A stretch of DNA of 56,806 nucleotides. Source: a virus. The notes under the pieces were generated by a model, which was given only the letters and a program-made list of their open reading frames with translations, was not told the origin of the DNA and searched no databases. The stretch's first letter is position 1. Every line of letters starts with the position of its first letter. Made by a program: the position numbers and the translations under genes. The stretch covers positions 1 through 56,806 of the IMG/VR virus record IMGVR_UViG_3300010373_000054. One strand, 5' to 3'. Shown in pieces: positions 26,544 through 55,500 of the stretch.

Positions 26544-26765
26544 ATTAATAGAGTAAAATTTCACATTAACGAAAAAGTAAGGATCAAGGACTTTCCAGAT
26601 TACTCGTATGACGAAAAATTCCCGTCACTTGCGCCGGGATCAGTTGGGCGCGTAATTGATACATGGTCTAAGAATAACTTTAACCGTCAGGAAACACATA
26701 TTCATGTTAAATTTGATTGTGGAAATGTATTTCCGTTTTATTTGGAAGAATTGGAGAAAATATGA
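26544..26765 (+). CDS. SH3-like small protein
   Basis: About 73 residues. The only in-frame ATG (26529) has no ribosome site; an ATT at 26544 has AAAGGA six bases upstream, so I place the start there with caution. VKFHINEKVRIKDFP...GSVGRVIDTW...HVKFDCGNVFPFYLEELEKI reads as an SH3-like barrel, one of the recurrent small folds of this genome. Ends in ATGA overlap with the next gene. Confidence 0.6.
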   Translation: MNRVKFHINEKVRIKDFPDYSYDEKFPSLAPGSVGRVIDTWSKNNFNRQETHIHVKFDCGNVFPFYLEELEKI

Positions 26766-26941
26766 AAATCAGCGAGCTTGTCGATAAGCTAAACAAGGTA
26801 AAAGAAACATTTGGAGATCTTCGGGTTGAGACAGAAACAGGTTTTAACTATACGGTAACTTCAATATCAGTTATAGACGAAGATGGACATCTTTGTTCTG
26901 AAAGGCGCAAAGAAGAAGCTTATTCGGTTTGGATTGAGTAG
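26762..26941 (+). CDS. MKxxEL family small protein
   Basis: 59 residues from ATG 26762 (ATGA overlap). MKISELVDKLNKVKETFGDLRVETET..YTVTSISVIDEDGH: an N-terminal helix MKxxELxxxL, then a GD-x-x-V strand and beta hairpins. Four more genes here share that plan (29932, 30137, 31988, 35113). Role unknown. Confidence 0.7.
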   Translation: MKISELVDKLNKVKETFGDLRVETETGFNYTVTSISVIDEDGHLCSERRKEEAYSVWIE

Positions 26942-26958
26942 GGGATTATTCCCCTACT
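26937..26958. terminator. hairpin shared by convergent genes
   Basis: AGTAGGGG-ATTATT-CCCCTACT. The rightward TAG lies in the left arm and the leftward TAA in the loop, so one hairpin closes both genes. The flanking T/A runs are short, so termination may be partial. Confidence 0.65.
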
Positions 26959-27413
26959 TCCTCATATTCAGCTTCAATAGCCAAAGTCTCTTGTTTTTGA
27001 ACAATATTCATCAGAGCCTTGATTTCTTCAGGCGACATTGTTTCAAGATTGATCTTGTGGTTAGTTTCAACGCTAACATCAATCTGCTTTTTATCCTGCC
27101 ATTGACCAAGACCAGAACCACGAAGCGCAAGACTTGCGGCCTGAACCGATGGACCGCTTTCCGCTTTAATCATCTTTGTTTCCCAAGCAAACAAACGCTT
27201 GTCAGATGCAATCTCACAAAGTTCAGCAAATTCAGGATATTTCTTTACCCAATTATAAATTGTTCGCCTGCTGACGCCTAGTTGACCAGCAATAGCTTCA
27301 AGGGAATATCCTTGTTCTGATAGTTCAGTTACCGTCTTACCAACAGATATGTCGAATTTGCTTTCAAAGACGCCAGTCTGTTCATTCTGAATTCTTTTTG
27401 TAGCTCGCGCCAT
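26946..27413 (-). CDS. terminase small subunit
   Basis: 155 residues. N-terminal helix-turn-helix (GYSLEAIAGQLGVSRRTIYNWVKKYPEF, about 36-61), central helices (LFAWETKMIKAESGPSVQAASLALR) and an acidic tail. This is the DNA-recognition plan of small terminases; pac/cos selection is the expected task. 1.1 kb upstream of terL on the same strand. Another HTH role cannot be excluded. Confidence 0.75.
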   Translation of the reverse strand: MARATKRIQNEQTGVFESKFDISVGKTVTELSEQGYSLEAIAGQLGVSRRTIYNWVKKYPEFAELCEIASDKRLFAWETKMIKAESGPSVQAASLALRGSGLGQWQDKKQIDVSVETNHKINLETMSPEEIKALMNIVQKQETLAIEAEYEEVGE

Positions 27414-27431
27414 TTATTTTCCTTTTACCGC

Positions 27432-27461
27432 TTGCATTGTAAATAAAACTATGTTTATATA
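27432..27461 (+). promoter_or_regulatory. rightward promoter of accessory operon
   Basis: TTGCAT, 18 bp, TATATA. The TATATA hexamer is also the -10 of the leftward promoter. Drives 27500 onward. Confidence 0.55.
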
Positions 27462-27484
27462 CCATTATAAACGTAAAAAGTCAA
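27456..27484 (-). promoter_or_regulatory. leftward promoter of terminase small subunit
   Basis: TTGACT, 17 bp, TATATA read leftward. It overlaps the inverted repeat GTTTATA-TACCAT-TATAAAC (27453-27472), which could be an operator that decides between the two directions. Confidence 0.65.
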
Positions 27485-27499
27485 GATTGGAGATAGATT

Positions 27500-28063
27500 A
27501 TGAATTCGAAAGAAGGGCATCATAGTTGGATGATATGGACTGCAAGAGAGAAAGCTAAACTTTTACACGTACATCAAAAAAGAAAATACACGGAAGAGCC
27601 TTATATTAATCATGTTGAAGCTGTAGCTACCAAGTTGGTTTCTTGGGGTTTTGATGATACACATATGATCTGTGCCGCATTATTGCATGATATTGTAGAG
27701 GATTGTAATTATTCGTTTGATCTAATAAAAGATGGTTGGGGATTTACAACAGCTCAATACGTATGGCATTTGACAAATGTTCCTCATATGGCTGGCAATC
27801 GTGCAAAGCGTCATACAATGGACGTTCAACGACTTTCGCAAGCTCCTTGGCAGGCGAAAGTTATCAAGTGTGCAGATTTGATCGATAACACATCTACAAT
27901 CGTCAAATATGATCCAAACTTTGCAAAGATTTATCTTGACGAGAAGAAAGATATCGTATCTAAGTTTGTTGAGGATTTTGATATCCCAAACCACGTTATC
28001 AAAGAATTAGTAGAGGTTTTAGAGAATGCCATTAAAGAGCTTGAAGAAGTACAAAATCGTTAA
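27500..28063 (+). CDS. HD-domain (p)ppGpp hydrolase-like protein (SpoT/MESH1 type)
   Basis: 187 residues, the size of small alarmone hydrolases. H38 (EPYINHVEAV), H63-D64 and E67-D68 (ALLHDIVED), and D126..DN130 (VIKCADLIDNTSTI) are the metal and substrate residues of the RelA/SpoT hydrolase domain; there is no synthetase domain. It would remove 3'-pyrophosphate from (p)ppGpp, keeping transcription and growth up during infection. First gene of the rightward operon. A related nucleotide substrate is possible. Confidence 0.8.
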   Translation: MNSKEGHHSWMIWTAREKAKLLHVHQKRKYTEEPYINHVEAVATKLVSWGFDDTHMICAALLHDIVEDCNYSFDLIKDGWGFTTAQYVWHLTNVPHMAGNRAKRHTMDVQRLSQAPWQAKVIKCADLIDNTSTIVKYDPNFAKIYLDEKKDIVSKFVEDFDIPNHVIKELVEVLENAIKELEEVQNR

Positions 28064-28199
28064 CTCATATACGGGTGAATTTTTTAAATCATACCGTTCG
28101 TTCAAAACAGCATATGATACCGTTCTTGCGCTAAATTATATGGAACGCTCGAATGGTCAATTTAATAACCCATGGGAGATTAAATATCTTGATTCGTAG
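28026..28199 (+). CDS. small basic/aromatic protein
   Basis: 57 residues, starting inside the end of the HD gene in another frame. MPLKSLKKYKIVNSYTGEFF.. continues with SYRSFKTAYDTVLALNYMER. Short alpha/beta look; resembles small phage proteins with a YxI..xTGE start, role unknown. Confidence 0.6.
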   Translation: MPLKSLKKYKIVNSYTGEFFKSYRSFKTAYDTVLALNYMERSNGQFNNPWEIKYLDS

Positions 28200-28311
28200 T
28201 AGAGAAGAAGCTGTAGCTTTCATAAAATATAAACTAGAAAATGATTATTATTTTCTACCATTTGAAGCTGAAGAAAAATGGATAAAGCAACTTATGGAGG
28301 AAAACAAATGA
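28189..28311 (+). CDS. 40-residue protein, TTG start
   Basis: TTG at 28189 follows GGGAGAT at good distance and overlaps the previous stop. The product is charged and helical (SREEAVAFIKYKLEND). Stop overlaps the next start (ATGA), which argues for translation. Confidence 0.5.
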   Translation: MIRSREEAVAFIKYKLENDYYFLPFEAEEKWIKQLMEENK

Positions 28312-28430
28312 TTGATCCTTTCACGCTTATGATCGTGGTTGCTGTAGGATCGTTCCTAGGTCATGTAATTTATGATCTAGTCCTTTACTTCTTTTATGGA
28401 GATGATGACGATGAAGGTTCTTTTTCTTGA
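28308..28430 (+). CDS. small membrane protein
   Basis: 40 residues: a single membrane helix (TLMIVVAVGSFLGHVIYDLV) and an acidic tail GDDDDEGS. Preceded by GGAGG; overlaps both neighbours. Unknown role. Confidence 0.6.
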   Translation: MIDPFTLMIVVAVGSFLGHVIYDLVLYFFYGDDDDEGSFS

Positions 28431-28908
28431 TTGCGATGGAGTATTGAACGATACTAATGATCTTTCTGTTCGTTCTGGAAGGTTCGAGCATGATGATTCA
28501 GGGTTTATCATCAATACGCAAAAAGTTCGTTTGTTGCAGGATATTGTAGAGCAGACTGATTGTAGGATTGTTTTGTCTTCTGCTTGGCGACTTTGGGATG
28601 AAGCCATTAAGACGCTTGAATATTATGGAATTGAGATTTATGATGTAACGCCTTCATTCAGCGGACCTCGTGGAGGTGAAATTCAATTTTGGCTCAACAA
28701 TAGTAAAGTTGAAATTGAACGATACGCAATTGTTGATGATGATAGTGATATGTTGGATCACCAATGGAAGTTTTTCTTTCAAACTGATCATGATTATGGA
28801 TTGACAAAAACAATTGCGTATAGGATAACTCATTATCTCAACAAAGGAAGGAAGGAAATAGTTGATTATGGAGAATTATGGGCCAAGCTTGATGGAAGCT
28901 CTATTTGA
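28411..28908 (+). CDS. HAD-superfamily phosphatase
   Basis: 165 residues from ATG 28411 (GGAG nine bases before). D7-C-D9-G-V (motif I), VLSSAWR (motif II), and AIVDDDSDM (motif IV) define a HAD fold of the type found in RNA/DNA end-repair proteins (HAD of Swiss-army-knife family). It probably removes a phosphate from nucleotides or nucleic acid ends. Confidence 0.8.
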   Translation: MKVLFLDCDGVLNDTNDLSVRSGRFEHDDSGFIINTQKVRLLQDIVEQTDCRIVLSSAWRLWDEAIKTLEYYGIEIYDVTPSFSGPRGGEIQFWLNNSKVEIERYAIVDDDSDMLDHQWKFFFQTDHDYGLTKTIAYRITHYLNKGRKEIVDYGELWAKLDGSSI

Positions 28909-29002
28909 AAATCGCCGCCCTTGGCAAGAGACAGCAGAGCTTGTAATTGCTTTTGCATCCGGGGCAATCCTTAGTTACTGTTTTGTGGTGTATGGACTAT
29001 GA
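28868..29002 (+). CDS. small membrane protein
   Basis: 44 residues, one membrane helix near the C-terminus (TAELVIAFASGAILSYCFVV). Lies in another frame across the end of the HAD gene and ends in ATGA overlap with the next gene. Confidence 0.55.
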   Translation: MENYGPSLMEALFENRRPWQETAELVIAFASGAILSYCFVVYGL

Positions 29003-29217
29003 GTGAATTAATTAGAGAAGAATTTGAAATCGAAGTTGCAAAAGCTTTTGCCGGTTACTGTCAAGAGCCATTCGAAGAATGGATTGAATATGCACAAAAG
29101 CTTGTTGCTAACGACCTTGAATGGCAGAAGATCGAATATGGCGATCCTGAGTATGCTTGGGATGCTGAAGCAGCTAAGGAGCTTTCTGATATTGATATCA
29201 GCTATTGGGAAGTTTAA
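28999..29217 (+). CDS. small acidic protein
   Basis: 72 residues, acidic and helical with many aromatic residues (FAGYCQEPFEEWIEYAQKLV). No family recognised. ATGA-coupled. Confidence 0.65.
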   Translation: MSELIREEFEIEVAKAFAGYCQEPFEEWIEYAQKLVANDLEWQKIEYGDPEYAWDAEAAKELSDIDISYWEV

Positions 29218-29231
29218 GAGAGGATTGACAA

Positions 29232-29405
29232 ATGCTTTCTATCTTCACTAACACAATTGAAGGTTTGGTTGAAGCAACAGTTAACACGATCAAGGCACCT
29301 ATTGGAGCGGCACTATTGCCTCTCGACAATGGCAAAACATTGAATGATGCTGTAGAAGGTGTTACCGAGGGTCTTGAAAAGGTTGGAAAGAGTGATGAAA
29401 TCTAA
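29232..29405 (+). CDS. small amphipathic protein
   Basis: 57 residues after a clear GAGAGG site. LSIFTNTIEGLVEATVNTIKAPIGAALLPLDNGKTL looks like an amphipathic membrane-active helix followed by a soluble tail; similar phage proteins exist, function unknown. Confidence 0.6.
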   Translation: MLSIFTNTIEGLVEATVNTIKAPIGAALLPLDNGKTLNDAVEGVTEGLEKVGKSDEI

Positions 29406-29550
29406 TTTCGTGCTTCTAGTCATTAGTCTATTGGTTGTGGCTGTATGCATTTATCTCAGCTGGTTGACTCCTGCCTTCTTTTGGGGCATAGTCTCTATCA
29501 TGACAACGATTAACATTTTGATGAAAAGGAAAGATGATGACGCAGAATAA
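29395..29550 (+). CDS. two-helix membrane protein
   Basis: 51 residues from ATG 29395. Two membrane helices (VLLVISLLVVAVCIYLSW and FFWGIVSIMTTINILM) with a charged tail KRKDDDAE. Overlaps both neighbours. Confidence 0.6.
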   Translation: MKSNFVLLVISLLVVAVCIYLSWLTPAFFWGIVSIMTTINILMKRKDDDAE

Positions 29551-29932
29551 ATATGTAGTCGGTAAGAAGTATAAGATTGGTTTTGATTGGTGGGGGTATT
29601 CGGATGCGATTGTAAAGGTAATTTCTATCAGAGGAAATGACTATAGCACGCACAATACAATTAAAGTTGAATATGAAGATGGAAGTACAAAAGAATTTCA
29701 TACATCAAGCATTGTAGATCAGTACACAACTCCATACGAAGAAGAAAAGACTATTGTCACTGAAAAAGTGACTAGGGTTATTGAGGCTGGTGAATATGGT
29801 CATGTTTGGGTAGATAATTTTGAAGTTGGTGTTGATAAGCACATCACTATTGAAGTGAATAGCAATGTCTTCACAAAACAAACATTGGGTGACCTTATCA
29901 AAACCCTAAACGAAATTCATGAGGTTATGTGA
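29537..29932 (+). CDS. SH3-like plus GxYG module protein
   Basis: 131 residues. N-terminal SH3-like barrel (YVVGKKYKIGF..DAIVKVISIRG..IKVEYEDGS) and C-terminal module VTEKVTRVIEAGEYGHVWVD..TIEVNS..TLGDLIKTLNEI. The second module recurs in proteins at 30414, 35385, 44246 and 45843. Probably a protein- or nucleic-acid-binding accessory; no catalytic residues seen. Confidence 0.7.
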   Translation: MTQNKYVVGKKYKIGFDWWGYSDAIVKVISIRGNDYSTHNTIKVEYEDGSTKEFHTSSIVDQYTTPYEEEKTIVTEKVTRVIEAGEYGHVWVDNFEVGVDKHITIEVNSNVFTKQTLGDLIKTLNEIHEVM

Positions 29933-30132: not shown

Positions 30133-30136
30133 TGTG

Positions 30137-30316: not shown

Positions 30317-30322
30317 TAACAA

Positions 30323-30348
30323 AGAGCGCTTCGGCGCTCTTTTTTTTT
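30323..30348 (+). terminator. intrinsic terminator
   Basis: AGAGCGC-TTCG-GCGCTCT followed by T8; the UUCG tetraloop makes it very stable. Three bases later a new promoter starts. Confidence 0.92.
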
Positions 30349-30350
30349 GT

Positions 30351-30379
30351 TTGACATGAGATTGTGAATAGCCTATGGT
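30351..30379 (+). promoter_or_regulatory. phage promoter
   Basis: TTGACA, 17 bp, TATGGT, directly after the terminator and before the operon 30414-32149. Confidence 0.7.
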
Positions 30380-30413
30380 TTATTATCTTAAAACACAAAA
30401 AGGAGAAATTAGG

Positions 30414-30800
30414 ATGAAATTTGAACTTCAGAAAGGAAAATACTATCGCACTCGTGACGGACGTAAAGTAGGTCCGATGGAAAAACGAGTTGATCAGTTT
30501 TATGATCCTTCGGATACATTGACAGGTTATGGTTGGTATAAGAATGGAAAATATTTGAATGGTGAATCTGAATGTCAACTTGATCTTGTAAGAGAGTGGT
30601 GCGAAGAGAAGGGTATTTTTACAACTGTCAAAAAGCTAAATATCGGTGATTTTGGAAATTTCAAGATCAATGAAAACACTTATGGAGTTAGTGTCGATTT
30701 GTTTCCTTCCAGCTTCTGGAAGTGTAATTCAGAAGAGTTGAAACAGCTTGCAAACCAACTTCTAGAAATCGTTGATCATTGGGAGAATGATGGAGAATGA
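30414..30800 (+). CDS. YxTRDG plus GxYG-like module protein
   Basis: 128 residues from ATG 30414 (AAGGAG). N-terminus KGKYYRTRDGRKVGPMEK...YGWYKNGKYLNGESECQLDLV matches a small phage beta domain (Y-x-T/R-R-D/C-G) also present in 44246 and 37034. C-terminus VKKLNIGDFGNFKIN..ELKQLANQLLEI is a variant of the GxYG module. Confidence 0.7.
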   Translation: MKFELQKGKYYRTRDGRKVGPMEKRVDQFYDPSDTLTGYGWYKNGKYLNGESECQLDLVREWCEEKGIFTTVKKLNIGDFGNFKINENTYGVSVDLFPSSFWKCNSEELKQLANQLLEIVDHWENDGE

Positions 30801-31057: not shown

Positions 31058-31059
31058 GT

Positions 31060-31484: not shown

Positions 31485-31492
31485 AGGTTATA

Positions 31493-31991: not shown

Positions 31992-32149
31992 AAGTCAATG
32001 AACTAATTAAACTGCTACAGGAAAGCGTTGAAGAGAATTTTGAGGTTGGGGAGTATGATGTTTATATGAATGTTGATTATGATGAAGCTTATGCAGGAGT
32101 CACATCAATGTACATCCATAAAGGTTTTGTAGACCTTGAATCAGAATAA
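31988..32149 (+). CDS. MKxxEL family small protein
   Basis: 53 residues. MKVNELIKLLQESVEENFEV then GEYDVYMNVDYDEAYAGVTSMYI. Fourth member of the family; the last base of its stop is the first base of the terminator stem. Confidence 0.65.
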   Translation: MKVNELIKLLQESVEENFEVGEYDVYMNVDYDEAYAGVTSMYIHKGFVDLESE

Positions 32150-32173
32150 GAGCGCTTAGGCGCTCTTTTTTTT
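32149..32173 (+). terminator. intrinsic terminator
   Basis: AGAGCGC-TTAG-GCGCTCT then a T run; near copy of the terminator at 30323, again followed at once by a promoter. Confidence 0.9.
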
Positions 32174-32175
32174 GT

Positions 32176-32204
32176 TTGACATGGTGCATAGATTATGAGA
32201 TTGT
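32176..32204 (+). promoter_or_regulatory. phage promoter
   Basis: TTGACA, 17 bp, GATTGT, preceded by TTATGA. Drives the operon 32241-35289. Confidence 0.65.
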
Positions 32205-32240: not shown

Positions 32241-32591
32241 ATGACAAAGTTTAAAATTGGTGATAGGGTTAAGGATGTTAGTTATTCAGCACCAGTTAAT
32301 CCCTATGGTGTTGTTCATGCAATTGATAATATCAATGATGATTTTATACAAATTTGTTGGGATCATAATTCCAATAATGGATCAGCAAATTATGTCGGCG
32401 GATTTCACCACTCTTCAGACTTCATCCTAGTAGAAAGTGCGCAAAAAGCAATTGAACCATGGAACCTGATGCAAGTCTCTATTCACAACAAAGAGAAGTT
32501 CAAGGAAACGCTACTAAACATCTTGAATGAAGGGCGAAAGCTAACGCCTATAGAAGTTGTTAAGGTTGAAGATTTCTTGGGGGTTGTGTGA
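32241..32591 (+). CDS. SH3-like protein
   Basis: 116 residues after AAAGGAG. KFKIGDRVKDVSYS..YGVVHAIDNINDDFIQICWD is an SH3/KOW-like barrel; the C-terminal 60 residues are helical (NKEKFKETLLNILNEGRKLTPIEVVKVEDFL). Likely a small binding protein of the early set. Confidence 0.7.
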   Translation: MTKFKIGDRVKDVSYSAPVNPYGVVHAIDNINDDFIQICWDHNSNNGSANYVGGFHHSSDFILVESAQKAIEPWNLMQVSIHNKEKFKETLLNILNEGRKLTPIEVVKVEDFLGVV

Positions 32592-32875
32592 TGGTTGATG
32601 TTAAACACACGCCTACGCCTTGGGACACGATGGGAAGCCTTGTGATACGTGTAGAGGGTCCGACCTCTTACATGGTTGCTAGAGCTTCATCTTCAGAAGA
32701 TGCCGACCATATCGTCAAGTGCGTTAAAATGCATGATGAGTTGGTGGAGGTGCTATCTAAATTCATGGATTTCAAAGATAGTGACTACGTGCCTAATAAT
32801 ATGTTTAAACGCGCAGAAAAAACCCTCGCCAAAGCACGAGGAGAACAAACAAAGGAGATTCTAAATGAAGGTTAA
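32591..32875 (+). CDS. HTPTPW-type phage protein
   Basis: 94 residues from ATG 32591 (TGATG). The N-terminal KHTPTPWDTMGSLVIR and DADHIVKCVKMHDELVEVL are hallmarks of a very widespread small phage protein family of unknown role. Confidence 0.75.
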   Translation: MVDVKHTPTPWDTMGSLVIRVEGPTSYMVARASSSEDADHIVKCVKMHDELVEVLSKFMDFKDSDYVPNNMFKRAEKTLAKARGEQTKEILNEG

Positions 32876-33050
32876 AATTATTCGTGAAAAGGTAGGCGGT
32901 TTTGATTTTGACGCTGGATGGGTGACTGAAGGTAAGGCTTATACAGTTATCAAAAGGCATACTATTTGGGATGACGGATATTACATTAGCGATAACGATG
33001 GTGATGCACTATTGTTTTGGGAACATGAGCTGGAGTTTGTGGAGGATTGA
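32865..33050 (+). CDS. SH3-like MKVxI protein
   Basis: 61 residues: MKVKIIREKV then W-V-T-E-G-K-A-Y-T-V, DGYYISDNDGD and ELEFVED. Same plan as the following gene and as the N-termini of 33652 and 34258: MKVRI, GxxY, a DxDGD turn, closing E-x-V-E. Confidence 0.7.
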   Translation: MKVKIIREKVGGFDFDAGWVTEGKAYTVIKRHTIWDDGYYISDNDGDALLFWEHELEFVED

Positions 33051-33052: not shown

Positions 33053-33244
33053 ATGAAAGTTCGAATTAAAGAGATTGACGACAGGCACGATTATTCGTAT
33101 GTAACAAACAAAGGCTTTGTTATTGGACATGTGTATGAAATCCATGAAGATGGTTTTGATGAAGAAGATAAAGGTGTAGTGATCATTGACGGTGATAAGC
33201 GCTGTTTCCTTTATGAATGGGAATATGAGGTTGTTGAAGTATGA
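33053..33244 (+). CDS. SH3-like MKVxI protein
   Basis: 63 residues from ATG 33053. MKVRIKEIDDRHDYSYVTNK, IGHVYEIHEDG, VVIIDGDKRC, EYEVVEV. Tandem paralogue of its upstream neighbour. Confidence 0.7.
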   Translation: MKVRIKEIDDRHDYSYVTNKGFVIGHVYEIHEDGFDEEDKGVVIIDGDKRCFLYEWEYEVVEV

Positions 33245-33486
33245 TTGAAGTTGGCAAAAAATATTATGTAGTGTCCGATATTTATGATTGGATTGATCCT
33301 ATGGAAAAAGTAGAGGTGCATACCCATGAAGATGGGGAAATGCCCTTTGTAGTCCACAGGCATGAAGATGGTTCTTGGCTTACTTCAGGTTATATAGATG
33401 AATATGACTTGCTTAGTGCTGATGAAATCATTAAGGTATGGCAGTATCACAGGATGATGGTTGATTCGTTTGAAAGGCATGGATGA
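33241..33486 (+). CDS. SH3-like acidic protein
   Basis: 81 residues, ATGA-coupled. Opens IEVGKKYYVVSDIYDWIDP, then two H-E-DG turns, and a helical C-terminus. Member of the GxxY barrel group. Confidence 0.65.
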   Translation: MIEVGKKYYVVSDIYDWIDPMEKVEVHTHEDGEMPFVVHRHEDGSWLTSGYIDEYDLLSADEIIKVWQYHRMMVDSFERHG

Positions 33487-33651: not shown

Positions 33652-34080
33652 ATGAAAGTTAGAGCTATTGAAGGCTGTCACCGAAACCTTACCGCTGGAA
33701 AGATTTATGATGTAGTGAGCATTTCAGAGGGTGGAGAATATTGGCGTGTTGTTGATGATAATGGTAACACAGACGGTTACATTCCTGACTTTCACTTCGA
33801 AGTCGTAGAAAAAGAACCAAAGATTGAAGTCGGTAGTCTGTGGATTCATGACAATGGTCTTGAGTATGAAGTTACTGCTGTCGGTGAGAAGGTTGCTTTG
33901 GCAAAACACGACGATGTCGAATACCAAGTGCGAATTAGTAATTTTGGTAAATCGTATAAACCAAAGCCTAAAACAGTGACGATGTATTTTTACAAAATGA
34001 ACAATGGCGAATATGAGTCATATTCATGGAAGATTCACGATGTTCCATTTTCATTTAAGCGTGAGATTGAACTACCATGA
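33652..34080 (+). CDS. double SH3-like protein
   Basis: 142 residues from ATG 33652 (AAAGGAAATAA). Two barrels: MKVRAIEGCHRNLTAGKIYDVV..YWRVVDDNGN..FHFEVVEKE and IEVGSLWIHDNGLEYEVTAVGEKVALAKHDD. The same ribosome site and start context occur before 44932, which suggests copying between the two early regions. Confidence 0.7.
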   Translation: MKVRAIEGCHRNLTAGKIYDVVSISEGGEYWRVVDDNGNTDGYIPDFHFEVVEKEPKIEVGSLWIHDNGLEYEVTAVGEKVALAKHDDVEYQVRISNFGKSYKPKPKTVTMYFYKMNNGEYESYSWKIHDVPFSFKREIELP

Positions 34081-34268
34081 TTGATATTGAAAAACGTTGG
34101 CAGATTGGTAAAACAATCGTTGATCCGCCTAGTGGTTGGAGGTATGGTTTTCCTGCACCATTGCAGGAAGACTATACAAAACAGCTTAAGGATGCTGGAT
34201 ATCCTGAAAAGGATATTGATATGGCGTTGAAACACTCTAGATATTGGGAAAGAGATTATGAAGATTAG
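34077..34268 (+). CDS. GWRYGFP-type phage protein
   Basis: 63 residues. SGWRYGFPAPL and DAGYPEKDIDMAL..RYWERDY are conserved in a known tiny phage family of unknown function. ATGA-coupled. Confidence 0.7.
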   Translation: MIDIEKRWQIGKTIVDPPSGWRYGFPAPLQEDYTKQLKDAGYPEKDIDMALKHSRYWERDYED

Positions 34269-34581
34269 AGCATTAGTTGATGATTCACCTTGGAGTGGTT
34301 TCAAAAAGGGTGACGTTTTTGAAGCTACATTGAATTATAATGAAGAAGCATATATCTTTATTGATAAAGACGGAAATAAAAGGCTTAGGTTTAGGTTTAT
34401 TGGTGATTTCGAAGTCGTCAATGAAGTAGTAAACAAAGAGCGAGAAAGCATTATCAAAGAGTTAGAGGGTTTGAATTTTCGTGCATGGAGTTATGGAACT
34501 TATGAGGATATCCATGTCCATGTAAGCGAGATGAATGCACTTGACAAGGCTATTGAGATTTTGAAAGGGATGAGGCGATGA
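34258..34581 (+). CDS. SH3-like protein with helical tail
   Basis: 107 residues. MKIRALVDDSPWSGFKKGDVFEATLNY...IFIDKDGN..RFIGDFEVVNE (barrel), then a helical half RESIIKELEGLNFRAWS...NALDKAIEILKGM. Confidence 0.7.
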   Translation: MKIRALVDDSPWSGFKKGDVFEATLNYNEEAYIFIDKDGNKRLRFRFIGDFEVVNEVVNKERESIIKELEGLNFRAWSYGTYEDIHVHVSEMNALDKAIEILKGMRR

Positions 34582-35384: not shown

Positions 35385-35792
35385 ATGGTTGATATTAAAG
35401 TTGGTGATTGGGTGAAGGCTAATGGTTGGAGTAAGTTTTACGAGGTTGTTGAGTCTGAAGGTAACAACATTACAGTTTTGAATTCTTGGGGGAAAAGATA
35501 CTCGTACTCATTAGAAGACTATGACTTCATCATCCGCGAAAATCCTACACCTTCGCCAGTGCGTGAAGTAGTGACTAAGGAATTGGTTGATGGCGTTTAT
35601 GGGCGGGTGTTGGTTGACGGCGTTTATGGGCGGGTGATGATTAAAGAAATTCAAGGAGAACCAACGTTTAATATTGTCAATCGCTTTGGTGAGTGCGATC
35701 CACTTGCTAATATGCAAGTTCTAAACGCCAAAGAACTTAGAGAGCTGGCACAAACATTGAATGAAGTTGCAGAGTTTTTGGAGAGTGAGTGA
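35385..35792 (+). CDS. SH3-like plus GxYG module protein with internal duplication
   Basis: 135 residues from ATG 35385 (AAGGAG). Barrel KVGDWVKANGWSKFYEVVES..., linker, then the module VTKELVDGVYGRVLV..NAKELRELAQTLNEVAEFL. The segment LVDGVYGRV is present twice in a row from a 27-bp tandem duplication with one base changed. Confidence 0.7.
   Translation: MVDIKVGDWVKANGWSKFYEVVESEGNNITVLNSWGKRYSYSLEDYDFIIRENPTPSPVREVVTKELVDGVYGRVLVDGVYGRVMIKEIQGEPTFNIVNRFGECDPLANMQVLNAKELRELAQTLNEVAEFLESE
35583..35636 (+). repeat. 27-bp in-frame tandem duplication
   Basis: Copies 35583-35609 and 35610-35636 differ at a single base and keep the frame, repeating nine residues in the core of the GxYG module. 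Confidence 0.9.
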
Positions 35793-35918: not shown

Positions 35919-36086
35919 ATGAAGACGTATCGGATTGATGGTGTTTACCAACACGGATATGAAGAATGGTTGACTATTGGATGTCCTGAAGATGAGGTCG
36001 GCAGACATATTGAAGATTATCTTGAAGAGAGAACCCCTAACGGGGAAAAGCGATTCAAAAGTATTATCGTTACAATTGAAGACTAA
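35919..36086 (+). CDS. YxIDGVY family small protein
   Basis: 55 residues after AAGGAG. YRIDGVYQHGYEEWLTIGCP-EDEV..YLEE..KRFKSIIVTIE. Paralogue of 36768 (same IDGVY, WL, CPxDEV, FKxI landmarks). Single-gene transcription unit. Confidence 0.7.
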   Translation: MKTYRIDGVYQHGYEEWLTIGCPEDEVGRHIEDYLEERTPNGEKRFKSIIVTIED

Positions 36087-37033: not shown

Positions 37034-37267
37034 ATGGCTAAAGCTTACTTCCTTCCACTGGTTTCACTCCCTGTAATTATTGATGAGCCGGGTGAATACG
37101 TAACACGTTGTGGTGATGTTGTTACAGTAACCATCGTTAGCACAAGACATGATTTGAATTGCCATGGCTTCTATAATGATGGTCATGTCAACGAAAGCTG
37201 GCACAAGTCAGGTCGTCTATATGCAACAACTGAAAGCTTCAATGATATTGTTTCTAAGGCGCTCTAA
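37034..37267 (+). CDS. YxTRxG family small protein, stop inside terminator
   Basis: 77 residues from ATG 37034. PGEYVTRCGDVVTVTIVS..CHGFYNDGHVNESWHKSGRLY..FNDIVSKAL: a phage family with Y-x-T-R-x-G and W-x-x-SGR landmarks, widespread and uncharacterised. Stop lies in the terminator loop. Confidence 0.72.
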   Translation: MAKAYFLPLVSLPVIIDEPGEYVTRCGDVVTVTIVSTRHDLNCHGFYNDGHVNESWHKSGRLYATTESFNDIVSKAL

Positions 37268-44165: not shown

Positions 44166-44246
44166 TTAAATGAATATTCCAATTGTGCAAACTATTGCAG
44201 CACCTACAAGAATGCCACAAAACAAACCTTGAAAGTAATCACTCAT
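44166..44246 (-). CDS. 26-residue membrane peptide
   Basis: TGATG-coupled to the gene before it. MSDYFQGLFCGILVGAAIVC.., paralogue of 43869 (MSD-F..L, GI-x-VGAAI, FI end). Confidence 0.55.
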   Translation of the reverse strand: MSDYFQGLFCGILVGAAIVCTIGIFI

Positions 44247-44932
44247 CACCTAGCATCCTTAATCTTTGTCAAAGTTTCAATTGCCTGTTCAATATCATCC
44301 TTAGACCATGTGCGACCGCCATCAACAACTCTGATATTGATTGCATGATAACCGTCTGTTGACAGTTTCAACCGTCCATACGTTCCAGCCTTGAGCCGCT
44401 TAACGGTTACTTCTTCAACTGGATTGTGTTTACTTTCTTCCAAAGTTTCATAGAAAACCCTTACATATTCTTCAACACTTTTACCATCAATTTTTATTTC
44501 CAGAGCGCGAAATCCTTCTTCAATAGTATGGAATTCTTCAACATACTCACTCACAATATTTTCACAATCTTCTTCATCGCCATAGATGAATTTTCCGCTT
44601 CCTGAATAAACACAATCACGGTCATCTTCAAATTCGTCTTTGTTGCCAGATTGATCAACCCAACCTCTATCACTCTTGACCATCGGCCCTACAACAACGC
44701 CGCCCTTGGTTACGTACTTCTTGCCTACTTCCAGTTTAAGAACTTCTCGAACTTCTACATCGATATCTTGATAAATATTTAGAAACACTGGAAAGCCATG
44801 TTCACTATCCTCTCCTGAAATTGTGTAAGTTTCTCCATTCCAAAGTTCTTCAATTGGATACCACTTATTAGCCTTTAGATATCCATTAGTGACAGACCAA
44901 TGCTTATCATTCTTAATCTTAACTTCAACCAT
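44246..44932 (-). CDS. three-module SH3-like / YxTxGG / GxYG protein
   Basis: 228 residues from ATG 44932 (AAAGGA). Module 1 (1-70): MVEVKIKND..LKANKWYPIEEL..YTISGEDSEHG, SH3-like. Module 2 (73-135): LEVGKKYVTKGGVVVGPMVK...CVYSGSGKFIYGDEED, shared with 30414. Module 3 (175-228): VEEVTVKRLKAGTYGRLKLS..AINIRVVDGGRTWSKDDIEQAIETL. The fullest combination of the modules in the window. Confidence 0.72.
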   Translation of the reverse strand: MVEVKIKNDKHWSVTNGYLKANKWYPIEELWNGETYTISGEDSEHGFPVFLNIYQDIDVEVREVLKLEVGKKYVTKGGVVVGPMVKSDRGWVDQSGNKDEFEDDRDCVYSGSGKFIYGDEEDCENIVSEYVEEFHTIEEGFRALEIKIDGKSVEEYVRVFYETLEESKHNPVEEVTVKRLKAGTYGRLKLSTDGYHAINIRVVDGGRTWSKDDIEQAIETLTKIKDAR

Positions 44933-45640: not shown

Positions 45641-45850
45641 TTAGTCTTCAATCTTTTCTACGTATGTTCCGATATTTTCTTCAGTGAATCCTTGAGAATA
45701 AATGCTACCGTGATTATCAACCTTAAAATAATATTTTTCAAATCCGTAATCTTCAACTTCAGAAATCACATAATATTCTTCTCGAATATCAGGATGGATA
45801 GAGAACAAACCATAATCAATAATCTTGATCTTATCGCCAACTTTAAGCAT
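45641..45850 (-). CDS. SH3-like MLKVGDK protein
   Basis: 69 residues from ATG 45850 (GAGGAGAAGAATA). MLKVGDKIKIIDYGLFSIHP..YYVISEVEDYGF..YFKVDNHGSI. Ribosome site and first seven codons are nearly identical to the upstream gene at 46241. Confidence 0.7.
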   Translation of the reverse strand: MLKVGDKIKIIDYGLFSIHPDIREEYYVISEVEDYGFEKYYFKVDNHGSIYSQGFTEENIGTYVEKIED

Positions 45851-46241
45851 TATTCTTCTCCTCAAGATAATCAGCCAAGTTGTTGAAAAGTTTTGCTGCA
45901 TTTCGAAGTTCTTCAGCATTTAGAATGTGAATAGTTTTGTCATCATTTCCACCCCTATCAACAAGAGATATATTAATTCCTTCCTGATGGCTGTTTTCTT
46001 CTCTTACAAAAAACCTCCCATAAATGCCATGCTCAAGATACTTTTTTACTTCCTTTACGGGATTCATTTCGTCATAAAACAACTCAAGTTCTTCGTCATT
46101 ATACCACCACTCTTTTTCAAGCATGTAGGTGAGTCTTGGATCGTCACGATCTACTTTAACAATTCTAGAAATTGTACCAATGGAATCTTCTCCGCCATTG
46201 ATAATCTTCACAACACGAACTTTATCACCAACTTTAAGCAT
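45843..46241 (-). CDS. SH3-like plus GxYG module protein
   Basis: 132 residues. MLKVGDKVRVVKIINGGEDS..TISRIVKVDRDD barrel, then VKEVKKYLEHGIYGRFFVRE..NISLVDRGG..ILNAEELRNAAKLFNNLADYL. TAATG-coupled to the gene before it. Confidence 0.72.
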   Translation of the reverse strand: MLKVGDKVRVVKIINGGEDSIGTISRIVKVDRDDPRLTYMLEKEWWYNDEELELFYDEMNPVKEVKKYLEHGIYGRFFVREENSHQEGINISLVDRGGNDDKTIHILNAEELRNAAKLFNNLADYLEEKNNA

Positions 46242-49338: not shown

Positions 49339-49900
49339 TCTTTAGTTCCTTTTCCTTTTCAACAATTGCATTCCAAGTGACAATGAAACCCTGCTTCAAG
49401 ATTCTGAAATCAGACGGATCACCTTCAACCTTACGCCCAAATGGTTCAAAGTCAACATAACTTTCGCCCCAAAATGAAATCATTTCATCAGCTAGGATTC
49501 GGTTATCATATTCTTTGACAATATCAAGCTTCTCTCCCAAGCCAAAGAAATTGAAAATGTGAGCATCAACACACTTTTCAACTTCCATATATTCAGGCAT
49601 AAGGCGCTTGATAGGTCGCATAAGGTCAGTAAGATAAGCCTCACCAGCATCATGCATAAGAATTTGCTTCATTACTCGAATGTGATCAAGTGTAACAAGC
49701 TTTACATCGTATAGGCCATGATCAAGAACATATTGATCAAGCATACCTAAAGTATGATTTGCAACCGAATACATGACAGGAACATGACCACCATAACGAC
49801 ACTGAAGGCTTAGAGAATGAGCAATAGACTCAACATCTAAAACGTTTGATTCAATGTCGTCATAATTGAAGATTCCGTTTAGTGTTTTAATATAGTTCAA
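49331..49900 (-). CDS. HD-domain phosphohydrolase (YfbR-like nucleotidase?)
   Basis: 189 residues from TTG 49900 (AAAGGA six bases before), giving NYIKTLNGIFNYDDI; ATG 49924 is an alternative. RYGGHVPVMYSVANHTL (first His), LMHDAGEAYLTDLMRPIK (H-D..E) and RILADEMISFWG follow the HD-domain nucleotide phosphohydrolases of phages. It probably cleaves (deoxy)nucleoside phosphates. Confidence 0.78.
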   Translation of the reverse strand: MNYIKTLNGIFNYDDIESNVLDVESIAHSLSLQCRYGGHVPVMYSVANHTLGMLDQYVLDHGLYDVKLVTLDHIRVMKQILMHDAGEAYLTDLMRPIKRLMPEYMEVEKCVDAHIFNFFGLGEKLDIVKEYDNRILADEMISFWGESYVDFEPFGRKVEGDPSDFRILKQGFIVTWNAIVEKEKELKNV

Positions 49901-50105
49901 TTGTAATCCTTTCCACTTGTTCATTAATTTCGTCACGCTTGATGCATTGCAACATCCAAAAATCATCAACCTTGATATAGAAGTGATAAAAATCAGGATC
50001 GCCAAGATATTCAAGCGTATAAATAGTGTCGCTGTTTACATTTTCGTGAAACAAATCAAGCGCTTCAGGACGAATCCTAAACTTATCTCCGAATTCCCAT
50101 TCCAT
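49887..50105 (-). CDS. SH3-like small protein
   Basis: 72 residues: EWEFGDKFRIRPEALDLFHE..SDTIYTLEYLGDP..YIKVDDFWML. Same barrel group as 45641. Overlaps the HD gene. Confidence 0.66.
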   Translation of the reverse strand: MEWEFGDKFRIRPEALDLFHENVNSDTIYTLEYLGDPDFYHFYIKVDDFWMLQCIKRDEINEQVERITIELY

Positions 50106-50400: not shown

Positions 50401-50628
50401 TCAAACTCCCCTTCCATTAATGACAAAAAATGTATCTCGAATGTCGTTAACCTGAATCCGAAACTTCTCTTCGTTCTTCTGAACGTTTAGCGCAAGATCG
50501 TAAGGCGAGTATCCGGCAGCTTTTTCTTTAAGTTTCTTAGCATTGTCTTCCTTAGCATTACGGTATTCATCTAGCAAGTCTAAATGCTCATCGAATTCAC
50601 TTTTGCTAACTATTTTATTTAAACCCAT
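50401..50628 (-). CDS. small helical protein
   Basis: 75 residues, charged and helical (FDEHLDLLDEYRNAKEDNAKKL). Start overlaps the end of the HNH gene. Confidence 0.62.
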   Translation of the reverse strand: MGLNKIVSKSEFDEHLDLLDEYRNAKEDNAKKLKEKAAGYSPYDLALNVQKNEEKFRIQVNDIRDTFFVINGRGV

Positions 50629-51103
50629 ATTTTATTTCTCCTTCCTCTCTAGCTTTAATAGCTTCTTCTTTGGCATTGAATCTGCCTAAATGTATCATTT
50701 TTCTATTTACTGTTATAGTGGCGACCCACTTCTTTCTTTTTGTATCAAAATGAACGCCCGTAAATCCACTTTTGTTATTAGTGCTAATGTTACAATTTCT
50801 ACCATTTACGATAGCAGAAACGTCCCTTAGATTTTCGATTCTGTTATCATCCCTCTTTCTATTAATATGGTCTACATATTTAGGAATGTAACCAAATTCA
50901 TATAAGAAGGCCCATCTGTGCGCAAAATCAACAATATTATTTATTTTTATAGAAATATAGCCACTTGTTTTAGACAAGTGTCCAGCTTCCTTCCCTACGA
51001 ACTTTGATATAAATTCTTTGCGCCTTGATTTATTATATATCCAGAAGAATTTTCCCGTATCTTTATCGTAAAGAATCCAAGTTTTCAATTCTTCTCTTGT
51101 CAT
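50615..51103 (-). CDS. HNH endonuclease with AP2 domain
   Basis: 162 residues. AHRWAFLYEFGYIP..VDHINRKRDDNRIENLR is the HNH core; NKSGFTGVHFDTKRKKWVA..IHLGRF is the AP2 DNA-binding domain. A free-standing homing endonuclease in the early region. Unlike the one at 4.3 kb it is on the strand of its neighbours and coupled to them (ATGA). Confidence 0.88.
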   Translation of the reverse strand: MTREELKTWILYDKDTGKFFWIYNKSRRKEFISKFVGKEAGHLSKTSGYISIKINNIVDFAHRWAFLYEFGYIPKYVDHINRKRDDNRIENLRDVSAIVNGRNCNISTNNKSGFTGVHFDTKRKKWVATITVNRKMIHLGRFNAKEEAIKAREEGEIKYGFK

Positions 51104-51556: not shown

Positions 51557-51628
51557 ACAACCTTCAAAACAAGGATCAAAGTTAGGAGTGTCAGCCATGA
51601 GGCAAGCAATCCATCGAATTTATAAGAA

Positions 51629-51811: not shown

Positions 51812-51812
51812 T

Positions 51813-52121
51813 TTACTTCTTCTTATTGCAGAATTTTTCAAGCCCCGAATTCTTCAATTTGATCAACTGAAGATCGTTGTTAAAGTCAACCCAAAAGTGC
51901 AGTTCATTCATATCGAAACCATCTTTGGATTTTAGGTAAGCAACACGCGCCTTAGCTACATCGCCAGCGCCAGCATCATAACCACTAACACCGCGACACA
52001 TTACATTATGCGTCATGTTCTTAGAAATAATCTCTCCTTCAGCCTTGTAGTCGATCTTGCCGGACAAATTACATCCGGCAAGAATTGGAAGGGAAATAAG
52101 AGCGATTAGAAGATTTTTCAT
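51813..52121 (-). CDS. small lipoprotein
   Basis: 102 residues. Signal peptide MKNLLIALISLPILAGC with a lipobox (LAGC, Cys17). Mature part is mixed with two more Cys (NVMCRGVSG, EKFCNKKK). Could alter the cell surface, for example superinfection exclusion, but nothing shows this directly. Confidence 0.7.
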   Translation of the reverse strand: MKNLLIALISLPILAGCNLSGKIDYKAEGEIISKNMTHNVMCRGVSGYDAGAGDVAKARVAYLKSKDGFDMNELHFWVDFNNDLQLIKLKNSGLEKFCNKKK

Positions 52122-52274
52122 TTAGATTGCTCCTGCAAACGCTGCAACGATTAGAACCATTGAAACCAAGATAACACCAAGAGAAACCATTTTCAAGAAG
52201 TCTTTTGCGATATCCCCAATCATTGAAGTCTTTTCACCTTCTTCAATGTACTGTTCCCAATATTTCCTATCCAT
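52122..52274 (-). CDS. 50-residue membrane protein
   Basis: TGATG-coupled to the primase-helicase. Polar N-terminus (DRKYWEQYIEEGEKTS) and a C-terminal membrane helix (VSLGVILVSMVLIVAAFAG). Confidence 0.62.
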   Translation of the reverse strand: MDRKYWEQYIEEGEKTSMIGDIAKDFLKMVSLGVILVSMVLIVAAFAGAI

Positions 52275-54523
52275 CACACTACGCTTTCATCTTCGTTCAA
52301 AATTTGATTTGGCTGTTTAACAAACTCTTTTAGCTTGTTCGTTAATTCCTTATCGCACAATCCGCTTGTCATTTCAACAGCTTTTTTGTTCAAAAGGAAA
52401 TAAGTTAGATGTGATTTGTAACTGATACGAGACTTCAATCCCAAATCCTTAGCATCAACCAAACCAGACTCACCAAACAGCTTCCTAATCTGCAATGGCG
52501 TTTCATAAACCTTGCTCTTAGTAGACTGTTCAATCCACTCAATCACATGTGTCAAACTCAACACAATAGGATTCTTATCATCGCGAACCATTCCCGAAAG
52601 TTCTTCAATCCTCTGATGAGCCTTAGACTGAGAAGCTTCAATAATTTCATACTTGCGTTCTGTTTCAGGCGCTCGCTCACCGCGCTTAACATAATCCCCA
52701 TAGTCAAGGCACCATTGAGCAATGATAGAATAACCTCCCGAAGAAAGCCAGTTATGAAACTCGTGCCATTTATCATCAGGCCAACGTTCTTCAGTGACAG
52801 TAGGTGCAAAGATACGTCTGTCTTGTGCGTCAATTCTCAAGGCCGCTAACGAATTAGAAAACATGAGGAAGTGCGCCCAATTAGAAATGTCAATAGGGTC
52901 ACGGTGCATCTTACGAAGCGTAATCAAAGGCTCTGAAATCAAATCCTTTAGCTTCGTAAACATTTTCCATGACTGCCCCTGATAAATTTCATTGACTACA
53001 ACCAAACGTTTTTGCGCAATCCAGCTATTGAATTCACCAGCAATAACTTGCTCACTAGGGAAAGAAGCATTGTGGCGTCCTGCCAGTTCTGCGACAATTT
53101 GACCTAGTGTAGATTTGCCCGTTCCTGTTTGTGTAGAAATCAACAAAGGCGACCAAATCATACGAATTTCAGGGTGAGCATAGAGAGTTGCAACCCAACG
53201 CAACAAATGTTCACGTTCTTCCTGTTTTGGAATCAACTGTTCAACGAATTCAAGCCACGGCTTGGGATCACCATATTGTGGTTTGATAGATGATGGATTG
53301 TAAAGATTGATCACCGCCTTACCATTAACAATAATCCTTCGCTTCTTTGTTGCTGGAGAATAATCAAAGGACGTAATACGACCGTTGAAGTTCTGTAAAA
53401 TAAGTTCGCTAACCTTTCTTGTGTCAGAAAATGGACGCAAAACATTATCAATAGTCTCTGCACTATAAGACAAGTGCGGCATATCCAAGTAACAGAATGA
53501 TCCTGTTTCTTCAACCCACTGATAAAGGTTCTTGGCATGTGAACGAAGAACGGGAACAGTCTTTTCCTTCTTTCCGTCTGGCACCACGATCAAATCAGTC
53601 ATGTAAGTTGCTGGATATGTGCAATCATCAAAGCTAGGGCCAATATAATATTTACGGCTGTCAATCTCCTTAAAGAATACAGGAGGGAAAGGGTCAAACA
53701 AATCAGCGCTTGCAGGCCATTCCTGACTAAATTCAATAGCATGTGTCACACAACGCAAAGCTTTTGCGATCTGTGGCAATGCAGCACGCCCCGGTTCATC
53801 ATTATCTAGAGCAACATAAGCCTTAACAATACCGTTATTCTTAATAGCGCTCCAGTCAGTTCTTGCAGGAGACAATGCACCAGAAGCCCAACCTACAACA
53901 GTAAAAGCTTTTAGTTTGTCGCCCCAAGGATGATTTTCCAAGGCTTGACGAGCTTCAGCAGTTTCACCATCAATCATCCATTGAACGAAACGTGCCGTCT
54001 TTGCACCTTCAACGATCAAGACATATGGGCTTTTCTTGATATGCTCTAGTCCGAAAAGAGGTAGCTTTTCCCCCGGCTCTGCAAATCGGTACTTGCCATC
54101 AGACCATTTGGAAATAGGTACGTATTTCTTTCCCTTTCTGTCATCAATGCGCAACTGAAGCATAACGACATTCTTGTTTTCGTCACGATAAACGAATTTG
54201 TTTTCATCTGTGGCGTTCAACCACATACTAGGCAAAGACTTATCGTTAACATCTTCAATGAAGACGGCTTCAGGCCATTGAATGCCACCGAATTCATTCT
54301 TGATTAGTGTTGCTTCTTCTCCAGTTGGATTGATAAGCGGGTTATTTTCAGGAGTGACGGTAATGTCACCCTCTTTCGTGAACTTAATAACATGAGTATC
54401 GCGCCAATATCCGGCTGATCCTTCTTCCTTGATAACCGCGACAAGCAGAGAACGACTTTCGGCTCCAATGCGGTCAAGATACTTCTTTACTGATGGAATT
54501 GATTCCAAATTTTCAAACTGCAT
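52274..54523 (-). CDS. primase-helicase (TOPRIM-like plus D5/SF3-type ATPase)
   Basis: 749 residues. N-terminal part with PYVLIVEGAKTA and VALDNDEPGRAALP is TOPRIM-like; C-terminal ATPase has LLISTQTGTGKSTLG (Walker A), LVVVNEIYQG (Walker B), and HFLMFSNSLAALRID..DRRIF (sensor/Arg region) as in D5/P4-type helicases with DUF5906. A winged-helix-like end follows. It should open the origin and prime replication. The main replication enzyme in this window. Confidence 0.87.
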   Translation of the reverse strand: MQFENLESIPSVKKYLDRIGAESRSLLVAVIKEEGSAGYWRDTHVIKFTKEGDITVTPENNPLINPTGEEATLIKNEFGGIQWPEAVFIEDVNDKSLPSMWLNATDENKFVYRDENKNVVMLQLRIDDRKGKKYVPISKWSDGKYRFAEPGEKLPLFGLEHIKKSPYVLIVEGAKTARFVQWMIDGETAEARQALENHPWGDKLKAFTVVGWASGALSPARTDWSAIKNNGIVKAYVALDNDEPGRAALPQIAKALRCVTHAIEFSQEWPASADLFDPFPPVFFKEIDSRKYYIGPSFDDCTYPATYMTDLIVVPDGKKEKTVPVLRSHAKNLYQWVEETGSFCYLDMPHLSYSAETIDNVLRPFSDTRKVSELILQNFNGRITSFDYSPATKKRRIIVNGKAVINLYNPSSIKPQYGDPKPWLEFVEQLIPKQEEREHLLRWVATLYAHPEIRMIWSPLLISTQTGTGKSTLGQIVAELAGRHNASFPSEQVIAGEFNSWIAQKRLVVVNEIYQGQSWKMFTKLKDLISEPLITLRKMHRDPIDISNWAHFLMFSNSLAALRIDAQDRRIFAPTVTEERWPDDKWHEFHNWLSSGGYSIIAQWCLDYGDYVKRGERAPETERKYEIIEASQSKAHQRIEELSGMVRDDKNPIVLSLTHVIEWIEQSTKSKVYETPLQIRKLFGESGLVDAKDLGLKSRISYKSHLTYFLLNKKAVEMTSGLCDKELTNKLKEFVKQPNQILNEDESVV

Positions 54524-54544
54524 TTAATTCCCTTTACATGCAAA

Positions 54545-54597
54545 TAAGCAGGCCATTTTTCAACGACCTGCTTACACGGTTAATTGTTACAAGTCAA
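54545..54597 (-). promoter_or_regulatory. promoter and hairpin before primase-helicase
   Basis: Leftward TTGACT, 17 bp (TGTAACAATTAACCGTG), TAAGCA (54569-54597). The -10 starts an inverted repeat TAAGCAGG...CCTGCTTA (54545-54574), a possible operator or weak terminator of the gene above. Confidence 0.5.
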
Positions 54598-54893
54598 GAG
54601 TTGAATTCTACCAAGGCTCTTTTAAGAGATTGGACAAGATTAAGACCATGACAGTCAATTATCGTTTCTCCTTCACCAGAAACGCTGTTGAATTCAGACC
54701 AAAATTCAAGCGCAGTCGCATCAGGAGAAGCATAAAATTTCTTTGACATTACTATTTCATTTATTTCACAACATAACTCAATTGTGTAAACTTCTTCAAA
54801 CTGATTCTTATCATACTCGCAGTCTACCTTGAATAGAACCTTGATTCCTTCATATTCTCGAACTTCGAAAATTCCACTATCTTTAAAATCCAT
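54594..54893 (-). CDS. hypothetical protein
   Basis: 99 residues from ATG 54893 (GAAAGGGG). Beta-rich acidic N-terminus (GIFEVREYEGIKVLFKVDCE) and helical end (VQSLKRALVEFN). Not recognised. Confidence 0.62.
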   Translation of the reverse strand: MDFKDSGIFEVREYEGIKVLFKVDCEYDKNQFEEVYTIELCCEINEIVMSKKFYASPDATALEFWSEFNSVSGEGETIIDCHGLNLVQSLKRALVEFNS

Positions 54894-54894
54894 C

Positions 54895-55500
54895 TCAATT
54901 ACCCCTTTCTTCAACCATAGCCTTAAACAAGATGAGATATACAATCATATCATCGGCACGACCTGAAATGCTTTCAAGTCGCTCACGCTTCTTACCTGAA
55001 CGAACGTCTTTGACGTATTGCTGAATTGCATCCCAATGCTTGCCAGCATATACAGACCAAATATCTTCCATCGTAAGTTCAAGATTTTTTGCATTGCGGC
55101 GGAAGTTGGCAAGACGATCTACATCACCGGCATATTCTCCTCCCTTCTTTTCAGAAAGTTCATTAATCTGTTCGACCGTTTGGTTGACGATTTCCTGATA
55201 GCGTTCATGAGAGAATTTCTTTTGTTCTACCAATTCACCGCCAATTTTAATATGATCACTAACAGAAGGGAGAGAGTTTAGATCGATCTTTACTTTTGAC
55301 CAAGTATCTTCTCGTGGATCGTAAACGGGAACTGAATCTACCTTTTCAACATCAGTAAAGAAAAGAAGTCCAGAACTTTCATCAATAACGTAAACACCAT
55401 CATAATCATCGGAAAGCGATTTTACTTCCTGAATTGACCCTTTTGGAAAGCGGTCATCATCGTCATTCAGCACACGAACTTTATCACCAACATTAAACAT
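54895..55500 (-). CDS. SH3-like domain fused to DUF1599-like domain
   Basis: 201 residues. Residues 1-55 (MFNVGDKVRVLNDDDDRFPK..VKSLSDDYDGVYVID) are one of the SH3-like barrels; residues 95-200 (ERYQEIVNQTVEQI, KKGGEYAGDVDRLANFRRNA, WSVYAGKHWDAIQQYVKDV, GRADDMIVYLILFKAMVEE) match DUF1599, tied to all-alpha nucleotide pyrophosphatase-like folds. Links the barrel family to nucleotide metabolism. One-base overlap with thyX. Confidence 0.78.
   Translation of the reverse strand: MFNVGDKVRVLNDDDDRFPKGSIQEVKSLSDDYDGVYVIDESSGLLFFTDVEKVDSVPVYDPREDTWSKVKIDLNSLPSVSDHIKIGGELVEQKKFSHERYQEIVNQTVEQINELSEKKGGEYAGDVDRLANFRRNAKNLELTMEDIWSVYAGKHWDAIQQYVKDVRSGKKRERLESISGRADDMIVYLILFKAMVEERGN

Follow-up and report, generated by a model that had tools for sequence, protein, structure and literature searches.

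Phage proteins of the kind described here are already known, as unnamed PHROGs families (phrog_23578 and phrog_4317) and as genes in the published genomes of Rhizobium, Sinorhizobium and Paracoccus phages. They are assembled from three modules: B, predicted to be an SH3-like barrel; T, a YxTRDGRKVGPM module; and Y, a putative GxYG hairpin followed by a C-terminal helix. Members of phrog_23578, such as gp37 of Paracoccus phage KLEP18-1 (UNY40268.1), have the layout T-Y, and all ten T-Y proteins that we tested match this family. Proteins of the type of phrog_4317 and p074 of Rhizobium phage 16-3 are built as barrel-barrel-YxTRDG: a single polypeptide holds more than one barrel, and the YG module is missing. 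All 26 aligned proteins of this type match phrog_4317.

Phage proteins shuffle domains, and unseen mosaicism is expected in accessory proteins and in proteins of unknown function (Nat Commun 2023;14:7460, PMC10684548). The B/T/Y family resembles such mosaicism in that domains are shuffled between phage proteins, but the cases in the part of that paper considered here concern receptor-binding proteins, endolysins and replication proteins, and the B/T/Y family is not among them. The open-access papers searched describe neither the module system nor its early-operon placement, the exchange of single barrels or a dispersed expansion.

The stretch of DNA analyzed here (the window) comprises a complete virus record of IMG/VR, 56,806 bases long. 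Its gene 30414 (genes are named by the first coordinate in Table 1) has the same T-Y architecture as phrog_23578, with a match of 6.3e-10 over residues 5-120 and a blastp match of 2e-11 to gp37 of KLEP18-1. Gene 44246 matches the same family at 1.9e-4, in its T part only. The B and T modules of the window are those of the p074-type proteins, but here they are found in short separate genes. The window also differs from records of the phrog_23578 type: it holds five YG genes, against at most two in each of 50 other records searched, and it joins YG to barrels too. B genes lie at about nine separate places, against three matches or fewer in other records, mostly inside one gene; this count favors the window, because the profile used includes window sequences. 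We tentatively regard the window as carrying a three-module family of alphaproteobacterial phages in an expanded and dispersed form. It has an unusually large set of small proteins made from the three modules, and in related phages one of these, the SH3-like barrel, is swapped as a unit; this suggests a binding toolkit.

The host of the window phage is probably an alphaproteobacterium, because the loci that a YxTRDG+YG alignment found among 84,980 prokaryote species all belong to Hyphomicrobiales, except for one metagenome assembly. The large terminase is nearest to those of Rhizobium phages (53% to RHph_X3_2), and RHph_X3_2 has terminase, tail and tape-measure genes in common with the window. 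A megablast search of the window from 30 to 52 kb against 50,697 phage records gave no match.

Several other genes in the window can be assigned to domain families. An HD_4 domain protein (27500-28063, +; Pfam 4e-9) is of a type that occurs in (p)ppGpp hydrolases, which makes a phage alarmone hydrolase possible. A HAD_SAK_2 domain protein (28408-28908, +; Pfam 1e-24) has a HAD domain known from RNA-repair proteins. A ThyX thymidylate synthase (55500-56294, -; Pfam 7e-32) lies directly upstream of barrel gene 54895. Two ORFs (4315-4782, +; 50615-51103, -) resemble HNH or homing endonucleases, as judged by eye from their translations.

Barrel, YxTRDG and GxYG modules in the window

The original prediction named 14 barrel genes, and nine of them stand. 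These nine (32241, 54895, 33652, 33053, 35385, 34258, 45843, 32865 and 45641) take the top nine ranks among 382 window ORFs, with E values of 1.5e-5 to 1.8e-3, in a search with a profile that contains no window sequence. The profile was built from 16 barrels of multi-module proteins in phages and prophages of Rhizobium, Sinorhizobium and the Brucella group, cut by eye at VGD-type motifs. The tenth-ranked ORF is an unclaimed one with an E of 0.2, and the best reversed-sequence control reached 0.13. A second, larger external profile recovered the same nine genes. For all nine top ranks to go to members of the claimed set of 14 by chance, the probability is about 5e-15 if all ORFs are considered and 1e-9 if only 100 of them are real genes. 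Three of the nine (33053, 34258 and 32865) have no VGD-type motif, yet they were recovered; hence, the match does not rest on the motif alone. PHROGs links the two sets independently: phrog_10201 and phrog_15694 match window barrels (45843 and 33652) as well as external barrel proteins.

The remaining five claims did not fare as well. The profile gives no support to 26544, 49887, 33241 or the N-terminus of 29537, and the N-terminus of 44246 is borderline. Gene 33241 and the N-terminus of 29537 match each other at about 1e-5 in blastp. Two further details of the prediction are likewise unsupported. The second of two tandem barrels proposed for 33652 has no profile support and is modeled with low confidence (pLDDT about 57-77), and the DUF1599 domain proposed for the C-terminal part of 54895 has no Pfam match up to an E of 1; phrog_6802 matches there instead (Table 1).

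Table 1. Module genes and predicted regulatory elements of the window, with E values from the external module profiles (B, T, YG)
Feature	Coordinates	Strand	Evidence
Claimed barrel, unsupported	26544..26765	+	B 26
YG gene, N-terminus not a barrel by profile	29537..29932	+	YG 4.2e-7; N-terminal B 12
Terminator hairpin, then promoter-like TTGACA-17-TATGGT	30321..30379	+	Upstream of 30414; consensus match only
YxTRDG + YG gene	30414..30800	+	T 3.6e-19; YG 0.004
Terminator hairpin near-identical to the 30321 copy, then TTGACA	32148..32185	+	Upstream of 32241; consensus match only
Barrel gene, B at residues ~4-62, then C-terminal extension	32241..32591	+	B 1.5e-5, rank 1 of 382
Single-barrel gene	32865..33050	+	B 1.8e-3; larger profile 1.1e-4
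Single-barrel gene	33053..33244	+	B 1.8e-4
Claimed barrel, unsupported; akin to 29537 N-terminus	33241..33486	+	B 1.3; T 0.64
Barrel at residues 1-55 + second half	33652..34080	+	B 4.7e-5
Barrel gene + C-terminal extension	34258..34581	+	B 4.3e-4; larger profile 2.9e-5
Barrel + YG gene	35385..35792	+	B 4.1e-4; YG 3.6e-17
Extra YxTRDG-like gene, missed by the original prediction	37034..37267	+	T 0.0013, third of window ORFs
Possible barrel + YxTRDG + YG gene	44246..44932	-	T 3.2e-10; YG 2.4e-10; B borderline, 0.11
Single-barrel gene	45641..45850	-	B 1.8e-3; larger profile 3.8e-5
Barrel + YG gene	45843..46241	-	B 7.3e-4; YG 1.2e-11
Claimed barrel, unsupported	49887..50105	-	B 1.1
N-terminal barrel fused to phrog_6802 domain	54895..55500	-	B 1.7e-5; phrog_6802 3e-15, residues 98-199

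That the B module has an SH3-like fold is supported by two kinds of prediction, profile matches to PDB sequences and one structural model. The PDB matches of the B profile are mostly SH3-like folds (uL24, Spt5 KOW, CPH, PsaE and Drk SH3), with individual E values of 0.002 to 0.9 and ribosomal uL24 as the best match at the sequence level. The one barrel modeled is that of 33652, and the fold of the other eight is assigned by homology. AlphaFold2 predicts residues 1-50 of 33652 with a pLDDT of 87-92 and in SH3 strand order. Over residues 1-55, the strands (2-5, 18-24, 30-34, about 44-45 and 49-53) follow the order of a five-strand barrel, with a short helix (46-48) preceding the last strand. Foldseek matches this model to the SH3 domains of Abl and CIP4 at a probability of 1.00, with an E of only about 0.05 to 0.09; the same list also holds beta-propeller chains at lower probability. 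By profile and model, the window barrels resemble SH3, KOW/uL24, CPH and PsaE, but they fall below every Pfam cut-off and belong to no specific family. Gene 33652 is just below the curated cut-off of DUF6501 (22.6 bits against 23.8; E 9.6e-5).

The GxYG module was predicted in five genes, and a profile of 12 sequences from other phages matches all five and no other ORF (next window ORF 0.69). A leave-one-out test, seeded with window sequences and one Paracoccus phage row, recovered all of them except 30414 (0.16), and in an all-against-all BLAST 45843 and 35385 are linked at 2e-8. The consensus reads GPVRTVTRKEIVPGxYGxVxV ... ELRAAAxTLxEIAxALE. The YG alignment by itself is too variable to serve in a pattern search, and a direct scan with 45843 as query gave no match. 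The AlphaFold2 model of 44246 (pLDDT near 90 in this part) predicts YG as three strands with a single helix at the C-terminal end. Two assignments of YG to known folds were rejected. First, an SH2 domain was indicated by a single sub-threshold match (45843, 20.9 bits against a Pfam cut-off of 21.0); ten T-Y relatives gave no SH2 match, and the 44246 model has no leading SH2 helix. Second, the PDB profile matches to kinase N-lobes and the proteasome, which could have indicated a kinase glycine loop, have E values of 0.05 to 10 and were taken as chance matches.

The external T profile confirms YxTRDG in 30414 and 44246; it also finds 37034, and the next window ORF is at 0.57. Gene 44246 may carry all three modules. 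Its T and YG modules hold, but its N-terminal barrel is borderline. The AlphaFold2 model of 44246 is confident over much of T and YG and poor at the N-terminus, and a PDB fold search with it gave no usable match. In a viral fold search, the best matches were uncharacterized phage proteins, one of them from Brucella phage EF4, with probabilities of 0.87-1.00 and none with an E of 0.001 or less. The possibility that B, T and Y are homologous to each other was rejected, the profile-profile probability being near zero for all three pairs.

Layouts, exchange and duplication of modules

The combinatorial reuse of modules, as originally proposed, is strongly supported both within the window and beyond it. 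Across 190 loci, 115 proteins carry B, T or Y, arranged in 17 layouts. The most frequent layouts are B-B-T (24), T alone (19), B-T (15), T-Y (14), B-T-B (11) and B-B-T-B (10), with others rarer. Because these relatives were collected via the T motif, both the layout counts and the synteny lean toward T-bearing, mostly 16-3-like phages. Additional modules occur at the ends of the multi-module proteins in 16-3-like loci such as L085 and L086, namely a domain resembling the C-terminal part of ribosomal L7/L12 and a PAIVALIENGQPKP...FGVYVL module.

Phages and prophages of Hyphomicrobiales carry the modules in their early operons, usually joined in a single gene with cro on one side and the Sak4/DUF669 recombination genes on the other. 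A cro homologue is found about 1.5-2 kb upstream of 62 of the 115 T modules; Sak4 is near 61 and DUF669 near 84. Most T modules are followed by genes for a Sak4-type ATPase, DUF669 and a beta-clamp, and Cas4 also occurs downstream in relatives. In phage 16-3, the module gene lies downstream of the annotated PR promoter, and RecE and RecT follow the T-Y gene of Paracoccus phage KLEP18-1. From this position in relatives, we infer that the module genes are expressed early.

Single barrels are exchanged between otherwise similar genes. Among the 595 pairs formed by 35 B-B-T proteins, 25 have one module with at least 80% identity and another below 45%. The clearest case is a pair of prophages, L126 and L183, whose DNA is identical in two stretches, -119 to +180 and about +396 to +815; the second barrel, between these identical flanks, is only 40-45% identical. 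A second pair (L098 and L104) shows the same pattern. Identical flanks around a divergent barrel indicate that barrels are swapped as units by recombination. The idea of a constant T and a variable B was dropped: T seems better conserved than B (44% against 29%), but its value is 28% outside the search motif.

In the window, the claimed genes are dispersed over both strands, and no recombinase gene adjoining the module genes was identified. The starts of 45843 and 45641 carry a 31-bp DNA repeat at 97%, and the starts of 54895 and 45843 have 37 bp in common at 89%. Gene 35385 contains a 27-bp in-frame tandem duplication in the YG turn, so that VDGVYGRV occurs twice, at 35592 and 35619. These repeats look like traces of recent duplication.

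A scan for terminators found 15 in the window against 6.9 in shuffled sequence, which is above expectation; a scan for promoters (39 against 42.8) was not. Gene 32241 sits after a terminator hairpin and TTGACA. Near-identical hairpins recur in two groups, one at 30321, 32148 and 45630(-), the other at 36085, 36496 and 37256. The GC skew flips sign at about 26 kb and about 38 kb, matching the switch of the coding strand.

Possible functions of the B/T/Y proteins

An exchangeable SH3-like barrel on fixed parts looks like an adaptor with a changing binding face. We tentatively propose that the B/T/Y proteins are early, accessory adaptors whose barrels would set specificity by binding other proteins at their surfaces, with host or defense factors as the likeliest partners. 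T and Y would probably be docking or self-association parts, and the target would be altered by swapping or duplicating barrels. What is a single multi-module gene in relatives may have become many short genes in the window, with one or two modules each. That the modules are accessory is suggested by related phages: RHph_X3_2 has no B/T/Y module in the 35.7 kb read of its 55.6 kb genome, and a contig with a related TerL (G001) has a single weak barrel match (0.0099). A further-reaching reading, which seems rather unlikely, is that alphaproteobacterial phages exchange single SH3-like barrels as cassettes in an early adaptor gene, redirecting it against host or defense proteins as these change, and that the window phage has extended this by multiplying the modules to about thirteen dispersed genes.

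The main rival to the adaptor reading is nucleic-acid binding. The barrels could be KOW/uL24-like binders that aid the phage's own recombination, replication or transcription, with T and Y as their link to Sak4, the DUF669 protein or the polymerase clamp. SH3-like barrels bind nucleic acids too, uL24 and Spt5 KOW are among the best PDB profile matches, and the genes of relatives directly precede Sak4, DUF669, beta-clamp and Cas4 (RecE/RecT in KLEP18-1). We nevertheless consider it fairly unlikely, for the following reasons. First, the window members are acidic. Of the 15 proteins claimed, 14 have a negative net charge (-0.03 to -0.14 per residue) and one is neutral; the mean per residue is -0.073, compared with -0.042 for the other small genes (uncorrected p 0.03). 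This favors protein over nucleic-acid partners without deciding it. Second, a fixed replication factor would not be expected to have single barrels swapped among genes that are identical elsewhere. Third, RHph_X3_2 has homologous virion genes and, in the part read, none of the modules.

One could also argue that the acidic barrels are not general adaptors but decoys, for example DNA mimics, by which restriction, nucleoid or repair proteins are blocked. Small early accessory phage genes commonly encode such inhibitors (anti-restriction proteins, e.g., Ocr), and the net charge of 14 of the 15 window proteins is negative. However, the charge is moderate in most members and mild in relatives (-0.035 per residue in external barrels), and Pfam and NCBIfam contain no described mimic that matches. 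We regard decoys as improbable.

Similarly improbable is a generic pattern, in which unrelated small SH3-like genes converge on VGDKV, GxxY and DxDG and the window holds ordinary accessory ORFs. In its favor are the modest B scores, the failure of five claimed barrels and the existence of similar generic families (DUF1918, DUF6501 and SH3_12). Yet the top nine ranks are all claimed genes, separated from the next ORF by a 100-fold gap in E value; DNA is common to the starts of 45843, 45641 and 54895; and YG and T homology is unambiguous. For the nine B genes, the five Y genes and the three T genes, this reading is refuted, unless deeper profiles split them into unrelated families. It is very improbable that the proteins are small virion-associated or ejected proteins. 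Gene 33652 matches phrog_14592, annotated as a virion structural protein (7.5e-7), and 45641 weakly matches another virion structural family (0.1), but this PHROGs annotation derives from other phages, and the genes of relatives lie in the early recombination operon, not in the late operon.

Few parts of phage genomes are as poorly understood as the early accessory genes. If, as the adaptor reading holds, the binding part is exchanged as a unit, then partner, host range and sensitivity to defense can be compared between members that differ in one barrel, and the clean L126/L183 pair makes such a comparison possible. If the barrels bind host proteins, then prophage variants would indicate candidate host targets in relatives of Rhizobium, Brucella and Paracoccus.
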